NCBI GenBank assembly: GCA_008638125.1
Contig: VTPM01000003.1
Coordinates: forward strand, 1-50,601
Origin: Pelagibacteraceae bacterium
GTDB lineage: Bacteria > Pseudomonadota > Alphaproteobacteria > Pelagibacterales > Pelagibacteraceae
DNA: 50,601 nucleotides
Reading direction: 5' to 3'
Below the pieces are notes generated by a model, which was given only the letters and a program-made list of their open reading frames with translations, was not told the DNA's origin and searched no databases. A program made the position numbers and the translations under genes. Of the stretch, positions 21,355 through 38,804 are shown piece after piece (the stretch's first letter is position 1; each line of letters begins with the position of its first letter).

Positions 21355-21819
21355 ATGTTTTTATCGAATTACGAGAACAAACTAGACAAAAAAGGGAGGG
21401 TTTCTGTGCCTGCTAGTTTTAGATCGCATTTGAGTTCTTTAGGATACAATGGATTTATTGCTTATCCCTCATTCAATCATTCTGCTTTAGAAGCTTGTTC
21501 ACAGGATAGAATTGAAAAACTTTCTAATACAATAGATTCATTAAATCCTTTTGAAGAAAAGAGAGATTATTTTGCAACTTCAGTTCTTTCTGAAAGTATT
21601 AATTTACAGTTTGATAGCGAAGGACGAGTTTTAATATCAGAAAAATTATTAGATCATGCAAAAATTAAAAATAATATTTTATTCGTAGGATTAGGAAAAA
21701 CTTTTCAAATTTGGGAACCAAAGAATTTTGATAAATTTAAAGTAGTTGCAAGAAAGAAAGCGTATCAAAATAGATCTAATTTAAAATGGGATAACAATCT
21801 AACAAGGGAGAAAATATGA
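21355..21819 (+). CDS. mraZ: Transcriptional regulator MraZ
   Basis: 154 aa; two SpoVT-AbrB-like DxxxR motifs ([20 protein letters not shown]). Confidence 0.96.
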
Positions 21820-23279
21820 ACATAAGAATAGGAGCAGGTGAATTAAAAGAATTAAAACCAAGAATAATAGTTATGGGTGTTGGTGGAGCAGGTGGAAATG
21901 CTATTAACGCTATGATCGAAGCAGGTTTGCAAGGTGTGGAATTTGTAGCAGTCAACACTGATGCTCAGGATCTTAAGTTGAGCAAAGCAGATGCAAGAAT
22001 TCAAATTGGTGCAAATCTAACTAAAGGATTAGGAGCAGGTGCTAAGCATGACATAGGACAGGCTGCTGCAGACGAGTCTTTGAATGAAATAATTAATTTT
22101 TTAGAAGGTGCCAATATGGTTTTCATTACCGCTGGTATGGGTGGTGGAACTGGAACTGGTGCCTCAAGTGTTATTGCTAGAGCAGCTAGAGAATTAAATA
22201 TATTAACTGTTGGTGTTGTAACTTTACCTTTCTCTTACGAAGGACCAAAAAGAATGCGAAGAGCAATCGAAGGCATGAATGCTTTGAAAAAACATTTGGA
22301 CACTTCAATAGTTGTGCCTAACCAAAACCTTTTCAAAGTTGCGAGTGAAACAACAACTTTTGAAGACTCATTTCATTTATCAAACAATGTTTTAAAATTT
22401 GGAGTTCAGAGCATAACTGATTTAATGGTTAAGCCAGGAATCATAAATTTAGATTTTGCAGACGTTGAAACAGTAATGAGCTCAATGGGTAAAGCAATGA
22501 TGGGAACTGGAGAAGCCGAAGGAGAAAACAGAGCTTTAACAGCAACTGATATGGCTTTAAACAATCCATTAATTGACGATTATTCTCTTAAAGGTGCCAA
22601 AGGTTTATTGGTTAATATAACTGGTGGTAAAGACATTACTCTTTTTGAAGTTGACCAAGCCGTAAATAAAATAAGAGCTGAAGTAGATCCAGAAGCTGAA
22701 CTTATTTTTGGTGCAATCAAAGACGAGAGTTTGAATGGAAAAATGAGAGTGTCAATTGTAGCCACTGCTTTAGATGGTCAAATAGCAAGCACAAATGGTG
22801 TAGTGAATATGGTCAATCGTATTCAAAACAGAAATAGTGGTTATTCAGAAAATTTATTTTCAAAAGGACCAATTTTTTCTAACAACACTTACAATACGTC
22901 TATTAGTGGAGCTACAGCTTTAAAATTAGACGAACAATTTGATACAAACACTCACTCTCAGTCAGAGTCTTTTATTGAAATCAATAAGGAGCCTGAAATT
23001 CAAAGTGAAGCTAACGAGTTTGAGTCAAGTATTTCAACTTCAGAAGTTACAAGTGAGGAAACTCCATTTGAAATAGATTCAATAGAGCAAAGCACTGCTT
23101 CAAATGAGGAGCCGTTAAGTCTAGATGAAGAGTACACTCCTAAACTTTTTTCTGATGAAGGATCAAATTCAGACATAGAAAATACTTCTGAGATCGAAGA
23201 AAAGAAATTGTTTGAGCAAGAGAGCACTCAAGAAGATGATTTTGAAATACCTGCATTCTTAAGAAGACAGAAATTTTAA
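21816..23279 (+). CDS. ftsZ: Cell division protein FtsZ
   Basis: 487 aa; [13 protein letters not shown], tubulin signature [11 protein letters not shown]7-loop region, acidic linker, C-terminal peptide [14 protein letters not shown]. Overlaps mraZ by ATGA. Confidence 0.99.
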
Positions 23280-23297
23280 TGAAGTATAAATATTCAA

Positions 23298-24320
23298 ATG
23301 AATATTTTAACATCATCACTGGAAACCAAACATTTTCCAGTGATGATAGAAGAAGTCATTAAAATTTGTAATCCAGAAAAAGGAAATAAAATATTTTTAG
23401 ACTGTACTTTTGGTGGTGGCGGTTACGCAAATGCTTTGTTAAATTTTCCTAATGTAAAAGTCATAGCTTTAGACAGAGATAAATCTGCAATAGAAAGAGC
23501 TAAAACATTAAAACAAGTTTTTCCCAAACAATTTTTTTTTCATAATGAAAAATTTAGCAATCTTGATAAAATTATTAATACAGAGGGTAAACCTGACGTA
23601 ATAATTTTTGATCTAGGTCTTTCTACTTTTCAATTAAAAGATTTAACTCGAGGTTTTTCTTTTAATGCTAAGGAAAAAATAGATATGCAGATGGGTTTAT
23701 CTAATATATCTGCTGAAGAAGTAATTAATAATTTTGGGGAAAATGAACTAAAAACAATTTTAAGAGTTTTAGGTGAAGAAAAAGAAGCAAGTAGGATCGT
23801 TAAAAATATTGTTAAATCGAGACAAATAAAAAAAATACAAAATGTTTCTGAGTTAGTTTCAATTATAGAAAAAAGTAAGAAAAAAGTTTTTAATAAAAAA
23901 ATCAATGTCTGTACTAAAACTTTTCAGGCTTTAAGAATTTTTGTAAACAAAGAAACAACAGAATTAATTGAAGGTTTAATTAAAGCTACTCAATTCATTA
24001 AATCTGGTGGAAAAATTATTGTAATTAGTTTTCACTCTATCGAAGACAAAATTGTTAAGTATTATTTTACTAACTACTCATCCAATCAATCTAATCCATC
24101 AAGATATTTACCTTATGAAAGTAAAAAAAAAGATAACTTTTTCGAAAAATATAAAAATAATTTTTTGACACCATCTAAAAATGAATTAGAAAAAAATAAT
24201 GCATCAAGATCAGCAAAATTAAGATTTGCTACGCGAAGTAAACAAGAATTTATTTATCCAACAGATTTCATAGAGAAATTTAATAAATATTTACAAGTAG
24301 AGAGTTACTATGCGCAATAA
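23298..24320 (+). CDS. rsmH: 16S rRNA (cytosine(1402)-N(4))-methyltransferase
   Basis: 340 aa; HFPVMIEEVI, DCTFGGGGYANALL, SFHSIEDKIVK. Confidence 0.97.
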   Translation: MNILTSSLETKHFPVMIEEVIKICNPEKGNKIFLDCTFGGGGYANALLNFPNVKVIALDRDKSAIERAKTLKQVFPKQFFFHNEKFSNLDKIINTEGKPDVIIFDLGLSTFQLKDLTRGFSFNAKEKIDMQMGLSNISAEEVINNFGENELKTILRVLGEEKEASRIVKNIVKSRQIKKIQNVSELVSIIEKSKKKVFNKKINVCTKTFQALRIFVNKETTELIEGLIKATQFIKSGGKIIVISFHSIEDKIVKYYFTNYSSNQSNPSRYLPYESKKKDNFFEKYKNNFLTPSKNELEKNNASRSAKLRFATRSKQEFIYPTDFIEKFNKYLQVESYYAQ

Positions 24321-24636: not shown

Positions 24637-26350
24637 GAAAAAACTAATAAGTGAGAATCAAAAATCTTTTTTCTTTGAGGATTTTATCGAGCATAATAAT
24701 AAACAAAAAAAAAGTGTAAAATCTAATCTAACAGAAGACAGGTTTTATATTTTATTTAGTGTTTTCTTTTCTCTTATTTTAATTTTCTCAATATCTATTT
24801 TCAATATTTCAACTGAAGACACAAATCATAGAGTTATTAAAAAAAATAAACCATATTCCTCTCCTCTAAGAAGAGATGTTGTAGATCGAAATGGTGAATT
24901 GATTGCAAGAAACATTACAGCTTATCATGCTGCAATAAAATCTAGCCAAATCAAGAATAAAGAAAATTTTATTCTTAAAATTAAATTAAATTTTCCAGAT
25001 ATAAATTTAACCGAATTAAAAACGAATTTGGAAAATAAAAAATATTTTTATTTAAAAAAAAGGTTAACCGAGGAAGAAAAAAACAAGATCTGGGAATTTG
25101 GAGAAAAGGGAATTGTCATTGAACCATTTCAAAGCAGAATTTATCCTCACCGACAATTATTTAGTCATGTTTTAGGTCAAATCGATGATGATAACTATGG
25201 AATCTCAGGAATTGAAAAATACTTTGATAGAGAACTTAAAAATAATGAAAAATTAAATACCCCATTATCTCTAACGTTAGACTCAAATCTGCAATATTTA
25301 ATAAAAAAAGAGCTAAGTGAGGCTATGAATGATTTTAAAGCAAATGCTGCGGGAGGGTTGCTAATGGATGTTAACACTGGTGAAATTTTATCACTTGTCT
25401 CTTTACCTGACTATAATGTTAATGTTAGATCAGACATTTCAGATCTTAAGTATATAAATCAAATCACAAAAGGCGTTTATGAACTTGGGTCAGTTTTTAA
25501 AACTTTTACGTTAGCTCTTGCTTTAGAAGAAAATATTTTAACTCCAGAAACTATTGTAAGTAATATTACTAAAAAAGTTCAATGCTCAAAATATCAGATA
25601 GGAGACATACACGAATTTCCAGAAAGTATGTCTGCCCAAGATATTCTTATTCAATCCTCCAATATTGGAGCTTTATTAATTGCTAGAAAAATAGGCGAAG
25701 AAAAATTAAAAAATTTCATAGAAAAAATAGGTTTATTAAAAAAGCCAACTATTGAATTGGAAGAAATAGGTCAACCGCTAAGTTTTAATTGGGAGAAATG
25801 TAAATTAGAAACCGTATCTTACGGACATGGTATTACAACAACACCCTTACAAGCTGCTACAGCTTATGCAGCGCTAGCTAATGGAGGTTATTTGATCAAT
25901 CCTACTTTAGAGCTAAAAGAATTTAACAAAAAAGAAAGTAAGGAAAAAATAATTTCTGAACAAACAAGTAATGAAATTTTAAGCATCTTAAGAAAAGTAG
26001 TTACAGATGATAAGGGTACAGCGAGTTTTGCAAATATTTTTGGTTATGAAGTTGGAGGAAAAACCGGGACTTCAAAAAAATATTTTGATGAGAATAAAAA
26101 TTTAAACACTTTTATTTCAGTATTTCCCGTAAGTGAGCCGAGATATGTTTTTTTAGTCATTCTCGATGATCCTAAGGGAGCACCACACATTAAGTATAAT
26201 TATAAAGGACAAAAAATAAGCACCTCTAGAAATGAAGCTGGTTGGAATTCTGTGTATGTAGCAGGCAAAATAATAGAAAAAATTGGACCTATTTTAGCCA
26301 TAAACAACAACGAGGTTGACAAAACTCATGTTGTTAAAAAAAATAATTAA
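24617..26350 (+). CDS. ftsI: Peptidoglycan transpeptidase FtsI (PBP3)
   Basis: 577 aa; RDVVDRNGELIARN, catalytic GSVFKTFT (SxxK), SSN, KTGTSKKY. Confidence 0.96.
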   Translation: MKHKQSKKKLISENQKSFFFEDFIEHNNKQKKSVKSNLTEDRFYILFSVFFSLILIFSISIFNISTEDTNHRVIKKNKPYSSPLRRDVVDRNGELIARNITAYHAAIKSSQIKNKENFILKIKLNFPDINLTELKTNLENKKYFYLKKRLTEEEKNKIWEFGEKGIVIEPFQSRIYPHRQLFSHVLGQIDDDNYGISGIEKYFDRELKNNEKLNTPLSLTLDSNLQYLIKKELSEAMNDFKANAAGGLLMDVNTGEILSLVSLPDYNVNVRSDISDLKYINQITKGVYELGSVFKTFTLALALEENILTPETIVSNITKKVQCSKYQIGDIHEFPESMSAQDILIQSSNIGALLIARKIGEEKLKNFIEKIGLLKKPTIELEEIGQPLSFNWEKCKLETVSYGHGITTTPLQAATAYAALANGGYLINPTLELKEFNKKESKEKIISEQTSNEILSILRKVVTDDKGTASFANIFGYEVGGKTGTSKKYFDENKNLNTFISVFPVSEPRYVFLVILDDPKGAPHIKYNYKGQKISTSRNEAGWNSVYVAGKIIEKIGPILAINNNEVDKTHVVKKNN

Positions 26351-29171
26351 AGACGTCCCGTCTTCAATTTCAAACATTAATATCGAAGGGCTGTCCTCTG
26401 ATAGCAGAAAGGTTAAAAAAAATTATATATTTTTTGCCATAAAAGGAATGAGAGATGATGGCGAAAAATATATTAAGGACGCTATTTTAAATGGTGCAAA
26501 GATTATTATTTGTGAACAAAAAAGTAAATATAAGAATAATAAAACAATTGTTTTAAAGATTAAAAATATTAAAAAACAAATCGTTCAAGCGTGTAAGATT
26601 TTTTATAGTAAAAAACCTAAGAATATTATCGCAGTTACAGGGACAAATGGTAAAAGTTCCATTGCAGAATTTTATTATCAAATTTTAAAATCACAAAAAA
26701 TACCAGTTGCATCAATTGGAACTTTAGGGATTAAAATCAATAATAAAATTTTAAAAAGCAATTTAACTACATTAGACACTATTTCATTACACCAAGCGCT
26801 CTCTGAAATTAAAAAAAAGGGAATTGAGAACGTAATTTTAGAAGCTTCAAGCCATGGACTTGATCAGGGTAGATTAGATGGAATTAAATTTAGCACTGGG
26901 ATTTTTACAAATTTTTCACAAGATCATTTAGATTATCACAAAACTATGAGTAATTATTTAAATGCAAAATTATTATTGTTTAAAAAACTTTTAAAAAAAG
27001 GATCAAATATAATTACAAATTATGAATTGAAAGAATTTTTAAAAATTAAAAAAATAGCTAAAGAAAAAAAATTAAAACTAAATACTATCGGTCCAAAAAA
27101 CTCTACTTTAGAATATAATCTAATTAAAAATTTAGAAAATTCTCAACTAGTTAGTATTAAGTATGGCAATCAATTAGAAGAAATTAAAATACCATTAATT
27201 GGTTGGTTTCAAATTAAAAACATTTGCATGTCAATATTAGCTGCAAAGTTATCAGGTGTAAAATTAGTAAAAATTTTTAGATCTTTACCGAAAATTAAAA
27301 CGGTTAATGGCAGACTTCAGTTAATCAGAGTATTACCTAATTTAACAAAAGTTTTTGTTGATTACGCTCACACACCTGACGCGTTAAAATCAAGTCTAGA
27401 AGCTCTAAGCAAACATTATAATAAAAAACCTGATGTAGTTTTTGGTTGTGGTGGGGACAGAGATAAAATGAAAAGACCTATAATGGCTAGGATAGCCGAA
27501 GAAAATGCCAATAAAGTGTATATTACCGATGATAATCCAAGATATGAAAATCCAAAAAAAATTAGAAAAACTTTAATTAAAAACTTTACTAAAAAATTTA
27601 ATGCACGCGAAATATCAGATAGAGCTGAAGCTATTAAAAGGTCTTTAATTGATTCAAATTTTAATAATTGTGTTTTGATTGCAGGAAAAGGACACGAAAC
27701 AACTCAAACCTATAAAAATAAAATAATAAATTTTTCAGACATAGATGTGATTAAAAAAATACGTCTCAAAAAATTAAATTATAAAAAGAAAAATTTAAAT
27801 CAATTATTGAATTCAGAATTAATTAACACAATTCAGAATACTGATAAGGATTATAGATTTGAAGGAGTTTCAATTAATTCAAAAAAAATTAAAAAAAACA
27901 ATATATTTATTTGCATTAAAGGAGAAAGGTTTGACGGTCATTCATTTATAAAAGAAGCTTTTAAAAATAAGGCAAATTTTTGTGTTAGTGAAAAAAGTAT
28001 AAACCATAGAAAAATAATAAAAACAAAAAATTCACTAAACTTTTTAAACAAACTTGCAGAACTTAAGCGAGATAATTCAAAAGCAAAAATTATTGCAATA
28101 ACTGGAAGTTCTGGAAAAACTACGCTTAAAACATTTTTAGGTAAAACTTTATCAATGTATGGAAGGACATATTATTCAGAAAAATCTTACAATAATCATT
28201 ATGGTGTTCCTCTTAGTTTGAGTAATTTAGAAAGCTATCATGATTATGGAGTTTTTGAAGTTGGTATGAGTAAAGCCGGAGAGATTTTAAAATTATCAAA
28301 GATAATTAAACCAGATTTAGTAATTATAACAAATATTGGCGAGGCACATCTAGAAAACTTTAAGAATATAAATTTTATAGCAAAAGCAAAAGCAGAAATA
28401 ATCCAAAACATAAGGCCTGGTGGATTCTTGTTATTAAATAAGGATGATAAATTTTTTTCTTTTTTAAGTAATTTAGGCAATAAAAGAAAATTAAAAATAT
28501 ATTCTTATGGAAAATCTTTTGGCGCAGACGCAAGGTTAATAAGTGAAAAAAACCTTAAAAATCAAAATCAATTAAAAATTAAAGTTTTAAATGAAATTAT
28601 TACCCTAAAGGCAAAAGATGTAAATGAGGTGAAAATTTATAACATATTAGCTTTGGTACTAGCCTTAAAAATTTTGAATTTAAATTTAAATAAATTAAAA
28701 AGTAACTTGAACTTAGAGTCACCAGAAGGAAGAGGAAGAATTAATAAAATTAAGAGATTTGGAAAGGATTTTAATTTGATTGATGAAAGCTATAATGCAA
28801 ATCCATCATCAATAAAAAATGCAATAAATAATTTTTCTAAACTAGAAACTAAAAATGGAAAAAAATATTTGTTATTAGGTGATATGTTAGAGTTAGGCAA
28901 AAATTCTGATTTTTATCATAAAAATATATCAAAAATTGTAAACCAAAGTAATATCGATAAATTATTTGTTTATGGTAAAAACGTTTTTAAAACTTATCAA
29001 GAGACACATAAAAGAAAACAAGGAAATGTTTTACAAAATTTGAGTGATTTTGATGAAATTTTTTCTGAATTAATTAAAAAAAATGATTATTTGATGATAA
29101 AAGGTTCAAACGCAACTGGTTTGAACAAATTATCTAAATTAGTAATATCAGGAAACAAAAATGCTTTATAG
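26316..29171 (+). CDS. Bifunctional MurE-MurF fusion (UDP-MurNAc-tripeptide synthetase / UDP-MurNAc-tripeptide--D-Ala-D-Ala ligase)
   Basis: 951 aa; two full Mur ligase modules: MurE P-loop AVTGTNGKSS with DDNPR (meso-DAP signature) and GKGHETTQ, then MurF P-loop AITGSSGKTT with NYNN/NHYG, ESYNANPSS, LLLGDMLELG. True start may be the ATG at 26328. Confidence 0.95.
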   Translation: MTKLMLLKKIIKDVPSSISNINIEGLSSDSRKVKKNYIFFAIKGMRDDGEKYIKDAILNGAKIIICEQKSKYKNNKTIVLKIKNIKKQIVQACKIFYSKKPKNIIAVTGTNGKSSIAEFYYQILKSQKIPVASIGTLGIKINNKILKSNLTTLDTISLHQALSEIKKKGIENVILEASSHGLDQGRLDGIKFSTGIFTNFSQDHLDYHKTMSNYLNAKLLLFKKLLKKGSNIITNYELKEFLKIKKIAKEKKLKLNTIGPKNSTLEYNLIKNLENSQLVSIKYGNQLEEIKIPLIGWFQIKNICMSILAAKLSGVKLVKIFRSLPKIKTVNGRLQLIRVLPNLTKVFVDYAHTPDALKSSLEALSKHYNKKPDVVFGCGGDRDKMKRPIMARIAEENANKVYITDDNPRYENPKKIRKTLIKNFTKKFNAREISDRAEAIKRSLIDSNFNNCVLIAGKGHETTQTYKNKIINFSDIDVIKKIRLKKLNYKKKNLNQLLNSELINTIQNTDKDYRFEGVSINSKKIKKNNIFICIKGERFDGHSFIKEAFKNKANFCVSEKSINHRKIIKTKNSLNFLNKLAELKRDNSKAKIIAITGSSGKTTLKTFLGKTLSMYGRTYYSEKSYNNHYGVPLSLSNLESYHDYGVFEVGMSKAGEILKLSKIIKPDLVIITNIGEAHLENFKNINFIAKAKAEIIQNIRPGGFLLLNKDDKFFSFLSNLGNKRKLKIYSYGKSFGADARLISEKNLKNQNQLKIKVLNEIITLKAKDVNEVKIYNILALVLALKILNLNLNKLKSNLNLESPEGRGRINKIKRFGKDFNLIDESYNANPSSIKNAINNFSKLETKNGKKYLLLGDMLELGKNSDFYHKNISKIVNQSNIDKLFVYGKNVFKTYQETHKRKQGNVLQNLSDFDEIFSELIKKNDYLMIKGSNATGLNKLSKLVISGNKNAL

Positions 29172-36016: not shown

Positions 36017-36943
36017 ATGAAAAAAAAAATTTTGCTTATCCAGGGAGGTTCATCAAGTGAAAGAGAAATAAGCTTAAGATCTGGAAAGGCATGTCAGAAA
36101 GCTCTTCGTCAATTAGATTTTAAGGTAATTGTATTTGATCCATTTAAAGACAAGCTCATAAAGATAAAAAATTTAAAAGTTAATAAAATTTTTAATGCAC
36201 TACATGGAAGGGACGGGGAAGATGGGATTGTTCAAGGTTATTTTGAGTATTTTAAAATTCCTTATACACATTCAGGAATCACTTCTTCAATGAATGCAAT
36301 GGATAAAATATTTTCAAAAAAAATATTTATAAAAAATAATTTAAAGACACCAAATTTTATTTCATTAAATGCCATTACTTATTTAGATTTTATAAAGAAC
36401 AAAAGTTTTAAAAAATCAAATTTACATTTCCCAGTTGTTGTTAAGCCATCCAATGAAGGGTCTAGTGTAGGAGTAGAAATTTGCAAAACTTTAAATCAAT
36501 TAAATTATTCTATAAGGAAACTTATCAAAAAATTTAAAACTTTAATAATCGAGGAATTTGTAGGTGGTCAAGAAATACAAGTTGCAGTTATTAATGGAAA
36601 AGCTTTAGGTGCAATAGAGTTAAAGCCAAAAAGAAAATTTTATGATTATAAGGCGAAGTATTCCAAATCTGCAAAGACAGAACATATTATGCCAGCTAAT
36701 TTAAAAGAAAATAAGTATAAGGAAGTTTTAGAATTAGCTCTTAAGGCACATAAAGCATTAAACTGTAAAGGAGTTACCAGATCTGATTTTAAATTCTTTA
36801 ACAATAAATTTTATATATTAGAAATAAATACGCAACCAGGCATGACAAACTTATCTTTAGTTCCAGAAATTGCAAAATTTTATGGAATTACTTTTTTAAA
36901 TCTTGTTAAAAATATTCTTAATGACGCAAGTACAAATAGATGA
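36017..36943 (+). CDS. ddl: D-alanine--D-alanine ligase
   Basis: ORF track starts at TTG 35999; ATG at 36017 (MKKKILLIQGGSSSEREISLRSG) is more plausible. ATP-grasp, ALHGRDGEDG, EGSSVGV, EINTQPGMT. Confidence 0.95.
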   Translation: MKKKILLIQGGSSSEREISLRSGKACQKALRQLDFKVIVFDPFKDKLIKIKNLKVNKIFNALHGRDGEDGIVQGYFEYFKIPYTHSGITSSMNAMDKIFSKKIFIKNNLKTPNFISLNAITYLDFIKNKSFKKSNLHFPVVVKPSNEGSSVGVEICKTLNQLNYSIRKLIKKFKTLIIEEFVGGQEIQVAVINGKALGAIELKPKRKFYDYKAKYSKSAKTEHIMPANLKENKYKEVLELALKAHKALNCKGVTRSDFKFFNNKFYILEINTQPGMTNLSLVPEIAKFYGITFLNLVKNILNDASTNR

Positions 36944-37608
36944 TTTTTAAACGAAAGTTTTTTTTTTTAATTATAATTTTTCTAATTTTTACAACCTACA
37001 ATCCTCAAAATAACAATTATAGTAATAGTTATTTGTTTCCAATAAAAAAAATAGAAATAGAGGGCAACAAGGCTATAGACAATAATGAAATAATAAAAGA
37101 TTTAGATTTTTTAAAAAATTCTAGCTTATTATTTGTCAACAAACAAAATATTGAAGATATTTTACTTAAAAACAAATTTGTATCTAAAATTATCTTAAAA
37201 AAAATATATCCCAACATATTAAGATTAATTATTTTTGAAAAAGAACCTGTGGCAGTTCAAATAATAGAAAAAAATAAATATTACATTACAAAAAAAAATG
37301 AAAATATTAATTTTTATGAACTAGAAATATATAAAGAATTACCAGTCATTTTTGGCAATCAAAAAGATTTTGATATTTTTTATGAAATTTTGGAAAAAAC
37401 TAATTTTGATATTTATAATATAAAAGCTTTTTACTATTTTGATGTTGGCAGATGGGATATAATGCTAATGGACGAAAGGATTATCAAATTACCAGAAAAA
37501 AATTATCAAAATATATTGGAAGAATTAAATTCAATTTTAAAAGATAATAATTTTTCTAAATATAAAATTTTTGATTACAGAATTAATAATCAGCTTATTT
37601 TAAAATGA
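36940..37608 (+). CDS. ftsQ: FtsQ-like cell division protein (POTRA domain)
   Basis: 222 aa; N-terminal TM, POTRA-like IKKIEIEGNKAIDNNEII...NKFVSKIILKKIYPNILRLIIFEKEPVAV; located between ddl and ftsA-like. Confidence 0.85.
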   Translation: MIFKRKFFFLIIIFLIFTTYNPQNNNYSNSYLFPIKKIEIEGNKAIDNNEIIKDLDFLKNSSLLFVNKQNIEDILLKNKFVSKIILKKIYPNILRLIIFEKEPVAVQIIEKNKYYITKKNENINFYELEIYKELPVIFGNQKDFDIFYEILEKTNFDIYNIKAFYYFDVGRWDIMLMDERIIKLPEKNYQNILEELNSILKDNNFSKYKIFDYRINNQLILK

Positions 37609-38804
37609 TACATAACAAACCAAATTTGATAATAGATTTAAATGATGAGTTTTTCTTATTTACTGTGTTTTCTTCTAATCAAGATAAAAAATTAGAGATA
37701 ATAAAAAAAAAAATAATAAAATCTTCAGGTATAAAAAATGGAAAAATTATCGATCAAAATTTAGTATCAAATTTAATTAAAAATACAATTAATGAGATTG
37801 AAGATGAAATAAATTTTTTTTTTTCTAGTACATCAATAATTATAAATCCTGCTGATATAAAATGTTTAAACATTAGCGGATATAAAAAATTGAATGGCTC
37901 TCAAGTTTTAAATGAAGATATAACTTTTATATTAAATGACATTAAAAACATTGTTAATGCAAATGAAAATAAATCTTCAGTTATTCATTTATTTAACTCA
38001 AGCTTTTCTCTAGATAGCGATAATTTAGAAAATTTACCAATTGGTTTATTTGGAGAATTTTATAATCAAAATATGTCATTTGTATTATTGGAAAATAATA
38101 TTTTAAAGAATTTTAAGATGGCTTTGAATGAAATAAACATCTCTATAGATAAAATAATTTTAAAGCCATTTGCTGAAGCAGTTCATTTAATATTCAACAA
38201 CAAATATAAGAATAATTTCTTTATATTTGAGCTAAAAAAAAATCAAATTCAACTTTCATTATTTAAAAATAAATCATTCATTTATTCAGAAAACTTTAAT
38301 TTTGGATTAAATTTAATTATCAAAGATATTTCTAAGTTATGCTCACTTAAAGAAGAAGAGATTGAGTTATTATTAAATGAATTAAATCTCAAAGAAATTT
38401 TATCTACAGACAATGAGTCAATTGTAGATAAAAAATACTTTTCTATTTCCCCATATAGAAAAATTAAGCATAAATTAATTTTTGAAATTATTAGTGCCAG
38501 GATAGATGAGTTAATCGATATTTGTATTAATAAAAATTCAAATTTAAGATTCTTAAAAAAAGATATTGTAAATATTTATCTCAAGCTTAATTCTGTGAAG
38601 TATTTTAAGAATATTCAATTTATATTGGAAAATGGAAATTATGCTTTAGCACTTGATTTTAGTCATAACTATTTAGATGAAGCATATAAGGGGACAGAAG
38701 GAGGCATTGAACTCATTTTAAACGGTTGGGAAAAAGAGGCCATTCCTGTGACTCAAATTAAAAAATCAATGATATCTCGTTTTTTTTCAAAACTTTTTGC
38801 ATAA
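37605..38804 (+). CDS. ftsA: Highly diverged FtsA-like protein (likely pseudo-ATPase)
   Basis: 399 aa; position ddl-ftsQ-X-lpxC; FtsA-like spacing (VIHLFNSSFSLDS...LPIGLFGEF...KMALNEINISIDKIILKPFAEAV) and C-terminal amphipathic KKSMISRFFSKLFA, but no DIGGGT-type motif. Confidence 0.7.
   Translation: MIHNKPNLIIDLNDEFFLFTVFSSNQDKKLEIIKKKIIKSSGIKNGKIIDQNLVSNLIKNTINEIEDEINFFFSSTSIIINPADIKCLNISGYKKLNGSQVLNEDITFILNDIKNIVNANENKSSVIHLFNSSFSLDSDNLENLPIGLFGEFYNQNMSFVLLENNILKNFKMALNEINISIDKIILKPFAEAVHLIFNNKYKNNFFIFELKKNQIQLSLFKNKSFIYSENFNFGLNLIIKDISKLCSLKEEEIELLLNELNLKEILSTDNESIVDKKYFSISPYRKIKHKLIFEIISARIDELIDICINKNSNLRFLKKDIVNIYLKLNSVKYFKNIQFILENGNYALALDFSHNYLDEAYKGTEGGIELILNGWEKEAIPVTQIKKSMISRFFSKLFA

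Follow-up and report, generated by a model that had tools for sequence, protein, structure and literature searches.

A divergent FtsA lacking recognisable nucleotide-binding motifs in a Pelagibacteraceae genome, and graded motif loss among its SAR11 relatives

The window, i.e., the whole 50,601-nucleotide stretch of DNA analysed here, corresponds to contig 64 in a genome of 1.0 Mb and 88% completeness. An open reading frame (ORF) at the ftsA position was described in the initial annotation as an FtsA that had lost its actin-like nucleotide-binding signatures and had kept a membrane-targeting helix. The features needed for the discussion are as follows.

21816..23279, + strand: ftsZ, the only one detected in the genome, at mraZ-ftsZ-mraW
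26316-29171: fused MurE-MurF protein of 951 aa, matching the bifunctional model NF008896 over almost the full length
36940..37608, + strand: ftsQ, directly upstream of the ftsA ortholog (POTRA_1, E 3e-12)
37605..38804, + strand: 399-aa ortholog of FtsA in which the nucleotide-binding motifs are missing, ATG start (ORF, TIGR01174, profile against 7q6d)
37626..37652, + strand: phosphate-1 position, LIIDLNDEF (canonical DIGTxK), by alignment
37854..38057, + strand: IC (SHS2) domain, residues 84-151 (PF02491), with the genus-conserved GYKKLNGSQ and LPIGLFG
38217..38264, + strand: phosphate-2 position, FFIFELKKNQIQLSLF (canonical DxGGGT), by alignment
38490..38522, + strand: helix of subdomain IIB, ISARIDELIDI, carrying R299 and E302 (R300 and E303 in E. 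coli), by alignment
38574..38612, + strand: adenosine-motif position, IYLKLNSVKYFKN (canonical LTGGxSQ), by alignment
38724..38747, + strand: GWEKEAIP, an instance of the new motif GWxxEAxP, found in 34/34 sequences of the window's genus
38760..38801, + strand: C-terminal basic-hydrophobic segment, a probable membrane-targeting helix
38858..39802, + strand: lpxC, directly downstream of the ftsA ortholog

The gene order around the ORF is murG-murC-murB-ddl-ftsQ-[ORF]-lpxC-bamD-ligA, and the ftsQ frame and the ORF overlap by 4 nt. The order ftsQ-ftsA-ftsZ is therefore not found here, the ftsQ-ftsA pair being kept with lpxC in the place of ftsZ. The gene lpxC is the usual neighbour of ftsA in SAR11, whereas canonical class members have ftsZ there. 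The MurE-MurF fusion matches NF008896 with an E value of 9e-258, at a score below the cut-off of the model.

Profile comparisons, in which a fold other than that of FtsA could have come to light, identified the ORF as a divergent FtsA. TIGR01174 matches it with 104 bits (E 9e-30), below the cut-off of 175.85 bits, which is exceeded in no member of the window's genus and in only 10 of 247 genomes of the order, compared with 208 of 240 genomes of the class. A family profile searched against the PDB retrieved FtsA only, plus PilM weakly, with E. coli FtsA (7q6d) matched at an E value of 5.8e-42 over profile positions 4-377, and profile-profile alignment (hhalign) to canonical FtsA covered residues 9-308 (prob 98, E 2.9e-13). 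The IC domain model PF02491 scores 22.9 bits (E 1e-4) by hmmscan, just below the cut-off of 25.4, and 25.5 bits, just above it, in a six-frame search; it matches 16 of 18 members of the genus. An AlphaFold model built from four sequences (the window and three other loci) reached a pLDDT of 53 and a pTM of 0.36, too weak for the pocket to be judged. Foldseek with this weak model ranked FtsA entries first (E about 5e-12, TM about 0.3), which supports the local fold only. An identity as PilM was rejected, since PF11104 gives 15.2 bits (E 0.01) against a cut-off of 27, FtsA profiles score far higher, and the locus is a division and cell-wall cluster rather than a pilus cluster.

In what follows, g1 denotes the window's genus, which belongs to family f1, and g6 a sister genus, the largest of that family and probably Pelagibacter itself. 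Motif counts refer to distinct sequences in E. coli numbering, taken from alignments of fast-evolving sequences; the E. coli FtsA sequence used for numbering agrees with the 7q6d alignment lines. Alignment to canonical alphaproteobacterial FtsA placed LIIDLNDEF (residues 8-16) at the phosphate-1 position, FFIFELKKNQIQLSLF (residues 205-220) at the phosphate-2 position and IYLKLNSVKYFKN (residues 324-336) at the adenosine position, exactly where the initial annotation had put them. None of the 34 g1 sequences carries the phosphate-1 DxG[ST], the phosphate-2 DxGGGT or the adenosine glycines, which are present in 27, 25 and 27, respectively, of the 28 canonical class members. A fourth site, the adenosine-ring lysine (E. 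coli K258), is lost as well (0/34 in g1 vs. 28/28 in the class). Because 0/34 in g1 keep the motifs compared with 25-27 of 28 class members, the loss is, on these alignments, neither chance nor an assembly error. The reading as a pseudo-ATPase is thus supported at the level of sequence, with all nucleotide motifs gone in 34/34 of g1.

The comparison across the order Pelagibacterales (SAR11) points to a motif loss that is stepwise. Genera g5, g7 and g8 (n = 8) keep phosphate-1 in 8 sequences and the adenosine motif in 7, and DxGGGT in none; the full-length sequences of g6 (n = 11) keep phosphate-1 in 8 (DxG in 11) and the adenosine motif in 11, again with no DxGGGT. In family f2 (n = 27), phosphate-1 and DxGGGT are both absent and the adenosine motif is present in all 27. 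All three are absent from g9, a sister genus (n = 2), as they are from g1. GGGT is absent from all SAR11 lineages sampled, its common replacement being a KTS-type loop (DFGxxKTS, DIQKNKT). A few other small or reduced alphaproteobacterial genomes, from families f96 (L128, L132) and f19 (L129), have an FtsA without most nucleotide motifs, and therefore the decay may extend beyond SAR11. The IIB pair R300/E303 is also missing from the FtsA of these genomes.

The strongest alternative is that the window protein is an ordinary FtsA that still binds ATP via a rebuilt pocket invisible to motif comparison. The fold is probably kept, and the phosphate-1 acidic residue is usually retained in g1, as Glu in 82% of cases and as Asp in the window protein. 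In addition, phosphate-1 and the adenosine glycines persist in other members of the order, suggesting that the ancestor probably bound nucleotide. However, g1 has lost the GT/K of phosphate-1 together with phosphate-2, the adenosine-ring Lys and the adenosine glycines, and conserves no substitute glycine-rich loop. Most of the columns of the lost motifs also lie at or below the median conservation of 0.53 in g1 (0.35-0.47 for phosphate-2, 0.29 for T17 and 0.38 for K19), while R300/E303 are invariant. A rebuilt pocket is thus considered unlikely.

Several features outside the nucleotide site are retained. The Arg/Glu pair of subdomain IIB, of which the E. coli counterparts R300/E303 take part in FtsZ binding, is present in 34/34 sequences of g1 and in 110/110 full-length sequences overall. 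The terminal segment quoted in the initial annotation, KKSMISRFFSKLFA, was found at residues 386-399. This basic-hydrophobic C-terminal end is conserved; its hydrophobic moment of 0.41 is not above that of its own shuffles (p 0.195).

FtsZ is intact, with the canonical tail EIPAFLRRQ encoded at 23244-23270, and its gene lies 15 kb from the ftsA ortholog rather than adjoining it. It is flanked by mraZ and mraW where the division cluster begins (window 21355-24320), an arrangement that recurs in g1, g6 and g9; in g5, g7, g8 and f2, ftsZ is not within the 20 kb around ftsA. Of 30 canonical class loci, 26 have ftsA and ftsZ side by side, vs. none of the SAR11 loci examined.

A second canonical ftsA was found neither in the window's own genome nor in g1 genomes up to 98% complete. 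The PF14450 match in the own genome, a candidate for such a gene, was identified as MreB, and PF14450 in g1 genomes retrieved MreB plus, weakly, two orthologs of the ORF, and no other FtsA. Among the 37 g1 genomes searched (own included), 28 carry a full-length, stop-free copy of about 395-400 aa, one carries a 69-aa fragment, and the other eight, which are incomplete assemblies (57-86% complete), gave no match. The full-length g1 copies other than the window's share 33-42% identity with it, and four close g1 pairs gave dN/dS of 0.09-0.22. The motif loss is therefore conserved among orthologs that are under purifying selection. Searches for alternative FtsZ tethers gave no SepF in 20 genomes and no match to ZipA_C. 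The SPOR matches in SAR11 genomes (L200-L205) resemble RlpA-type lipoproteins beside a lytic transglycosylase, and none was a bitopic protein of the FtsN kind, so that FtsN as a partner finds no support.

In g6, the ftsQ-lpxC interval (loci L138-L176 and L206-L265) holds an ORF in every genome with both flanks readable (n = 91). The ORF encodes 220-245 aa in 67 genomes (here called mini-FtsA) and 368-394 aa in 22, and its frame is broken in the remaining two. In these two, L159 (G073) and L216 (G184), the mini-FtsA frame is split into two ORFs, which may reflect sequencing errors or real breaks. The match of mini-FtsA to the full-length form covers residues 1-184 (prob 99.9, E 3.7e-37), i.e., domain I only, and that to E. 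coli FtsA covers residues 53-194 (E 3.5e-4); after domain I, the chain runs straight into the C-terminal NEV...GFFEKFF tail. The chain order of the actin fold is IA-IC-IA-IIA-IIB-IIA-IA, and by these alignments domain II (IIA and IIB) has been cleanly removed from mini-FtsA. Such a protein would have neither the ATP cleft nor the IIA-IIB filament contact nor the subdomain that binds FtsZ, and would keep domain I, which receives partner proteins, and the membrane tail. To our knowledge, there is no other case of an actin-type protein missing the whole of domain II. A concomitant loss of the FtsZ tail was discarded, as EIPAFLRRQ is present in every g6 FtsZ read.

The dN/dS values of mini-FtsA pairs range from 0.11 to 0.45, mostly 0.1-0.25 with 0.45 for the most diverged pair, and are similar to those of ftsQ in the same genomes. 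A five-gene tree rejects the mini-FtsA genomes as a single clade (p-AU 6.6e-5), and the domain-I gene tree does not reject a single mini-FtsA clade (p 0.55). Domain II may have been excised repeatedly, or once with later reacquisition of the full-length gene.

Deletion of FtsA subdomain 2B abolishes the FtsZ interaction, and 1C recruits FtsQ and FtsN (PMC4281207); FtsN docks in the IA-IC cleft of FtsA, and filaments are built by IIA-IIB contacts (PMC7613929). On the basis of these roles, the window protein is read as a nucleotide-free adaptor, and we consider it probable that the only FtsA of this genome has turned into a nucleotide-independent membrane adaptor. The C-terminal segment would keep the protein on the membrane, subdomain IIB with its invariant Arg/Glu pair would still bind the FtsZ tail, and domains IA and IC would dock later division proteins such as FtsQ. 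ATP would no longer be bound, and ATP-driven polymerisation and membrane remodelling would have been abandoned. The role as a membrane tether or adaptor, presumed here as in the initial annotation, is strengthened by g6, most genomes of which have lost the ATP- and FtsZ-binding half and yet kept domain I and the tail. Since loss of the nucleotide-dependent activities of FtsA breaks division in E. coli (PMC10213515), a nucleotide-free FtsA would need compensation.

Another possibility is that the FtsA-derived protein no longer works with FtsZ at all and only scaffolds FtsQ, FtsW and FtsI at the membrane, in line with the uncoupling of ftsA and ftsZ in every SAR11 locus read and with the absence of IIB from mini-FtsA though FtsZ retains its tail. 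However, g1 keeps IIB, with R299/E302 among its few invariant residues, making this quite improbable for the window protein. A gene decaying towards loss with no important function, as the fast evolution, the low identity and the broken frames in 2/91 g6 genomes might suggest, is the least credible explanation and very improbable, given the intact and near-constant length of complete g1 copies, the low dN/dS in g1 and in most mini-FtsA pairs (like ftsQ), and an ORF that is never simply absent in g6 where both flanks were read.

Judging from its domain content, mini-FtsA must be without the known link to FtsZ, and SepF and ZipA were not found either. It could be that FtsA has lost its ATPase character piece by piece in SAR11, GGGT going first, followed by all nucleotide contacts or, in most g6 genomes, by the whole of domain II. 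The half-actin remnant in those g6 genomes would then receive late division proteins independently of both nucleotide and FtsZ, and FtsZ would be anchored or organised by something other than FtsA, SepF or ZipA. To this extended proposal we give even chances.

No earlier report on the FtsA of SAR11 or Pelagibacter was found in the open literature. An abundant marine lineage seemingly divides with an FtsA that has no ATP site and often no FtsZ-binding half. This amounts to a natural experiment on the role of ATP, separating the jobs of FtsA as membrane anchor, divisome receptor, FtsZ partner and ATP polymer, each of which is made testable by the SAR11 variants.

Compared with canonical FtsA (E. 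coli 7Q6D, T. maritima 1E4G/4A2A), the window protein shares the position after ftsQ, the chain order, the IC (SHS2) domain, the IIB Arg/Glu pair and the C-terminal basic-hydrophobic segment. It differs in having no nucleotide motifs, no adjoining ftsZ, a shortened segment ahead of the adenosine position and the new GWxxEAxP motif. The FtsA of Deinococcus radiodurans was reported to be without ATPase activity, its polymerisation still being ATP-dependent (PMC4281207), whereas the window protein is without nucleotide motifs altogether. PilM of the type IV pilus has a similar FtsA-like fold with an IC domain, the PF11104 match being weak. Finally, some eukaryotic Arps and other actin-related pseudo-ATPases reuse the actin fold as a scaffold after nucleotide turnover has been lost; unlike these, the window protein is bacterial and would be membrane-bound.
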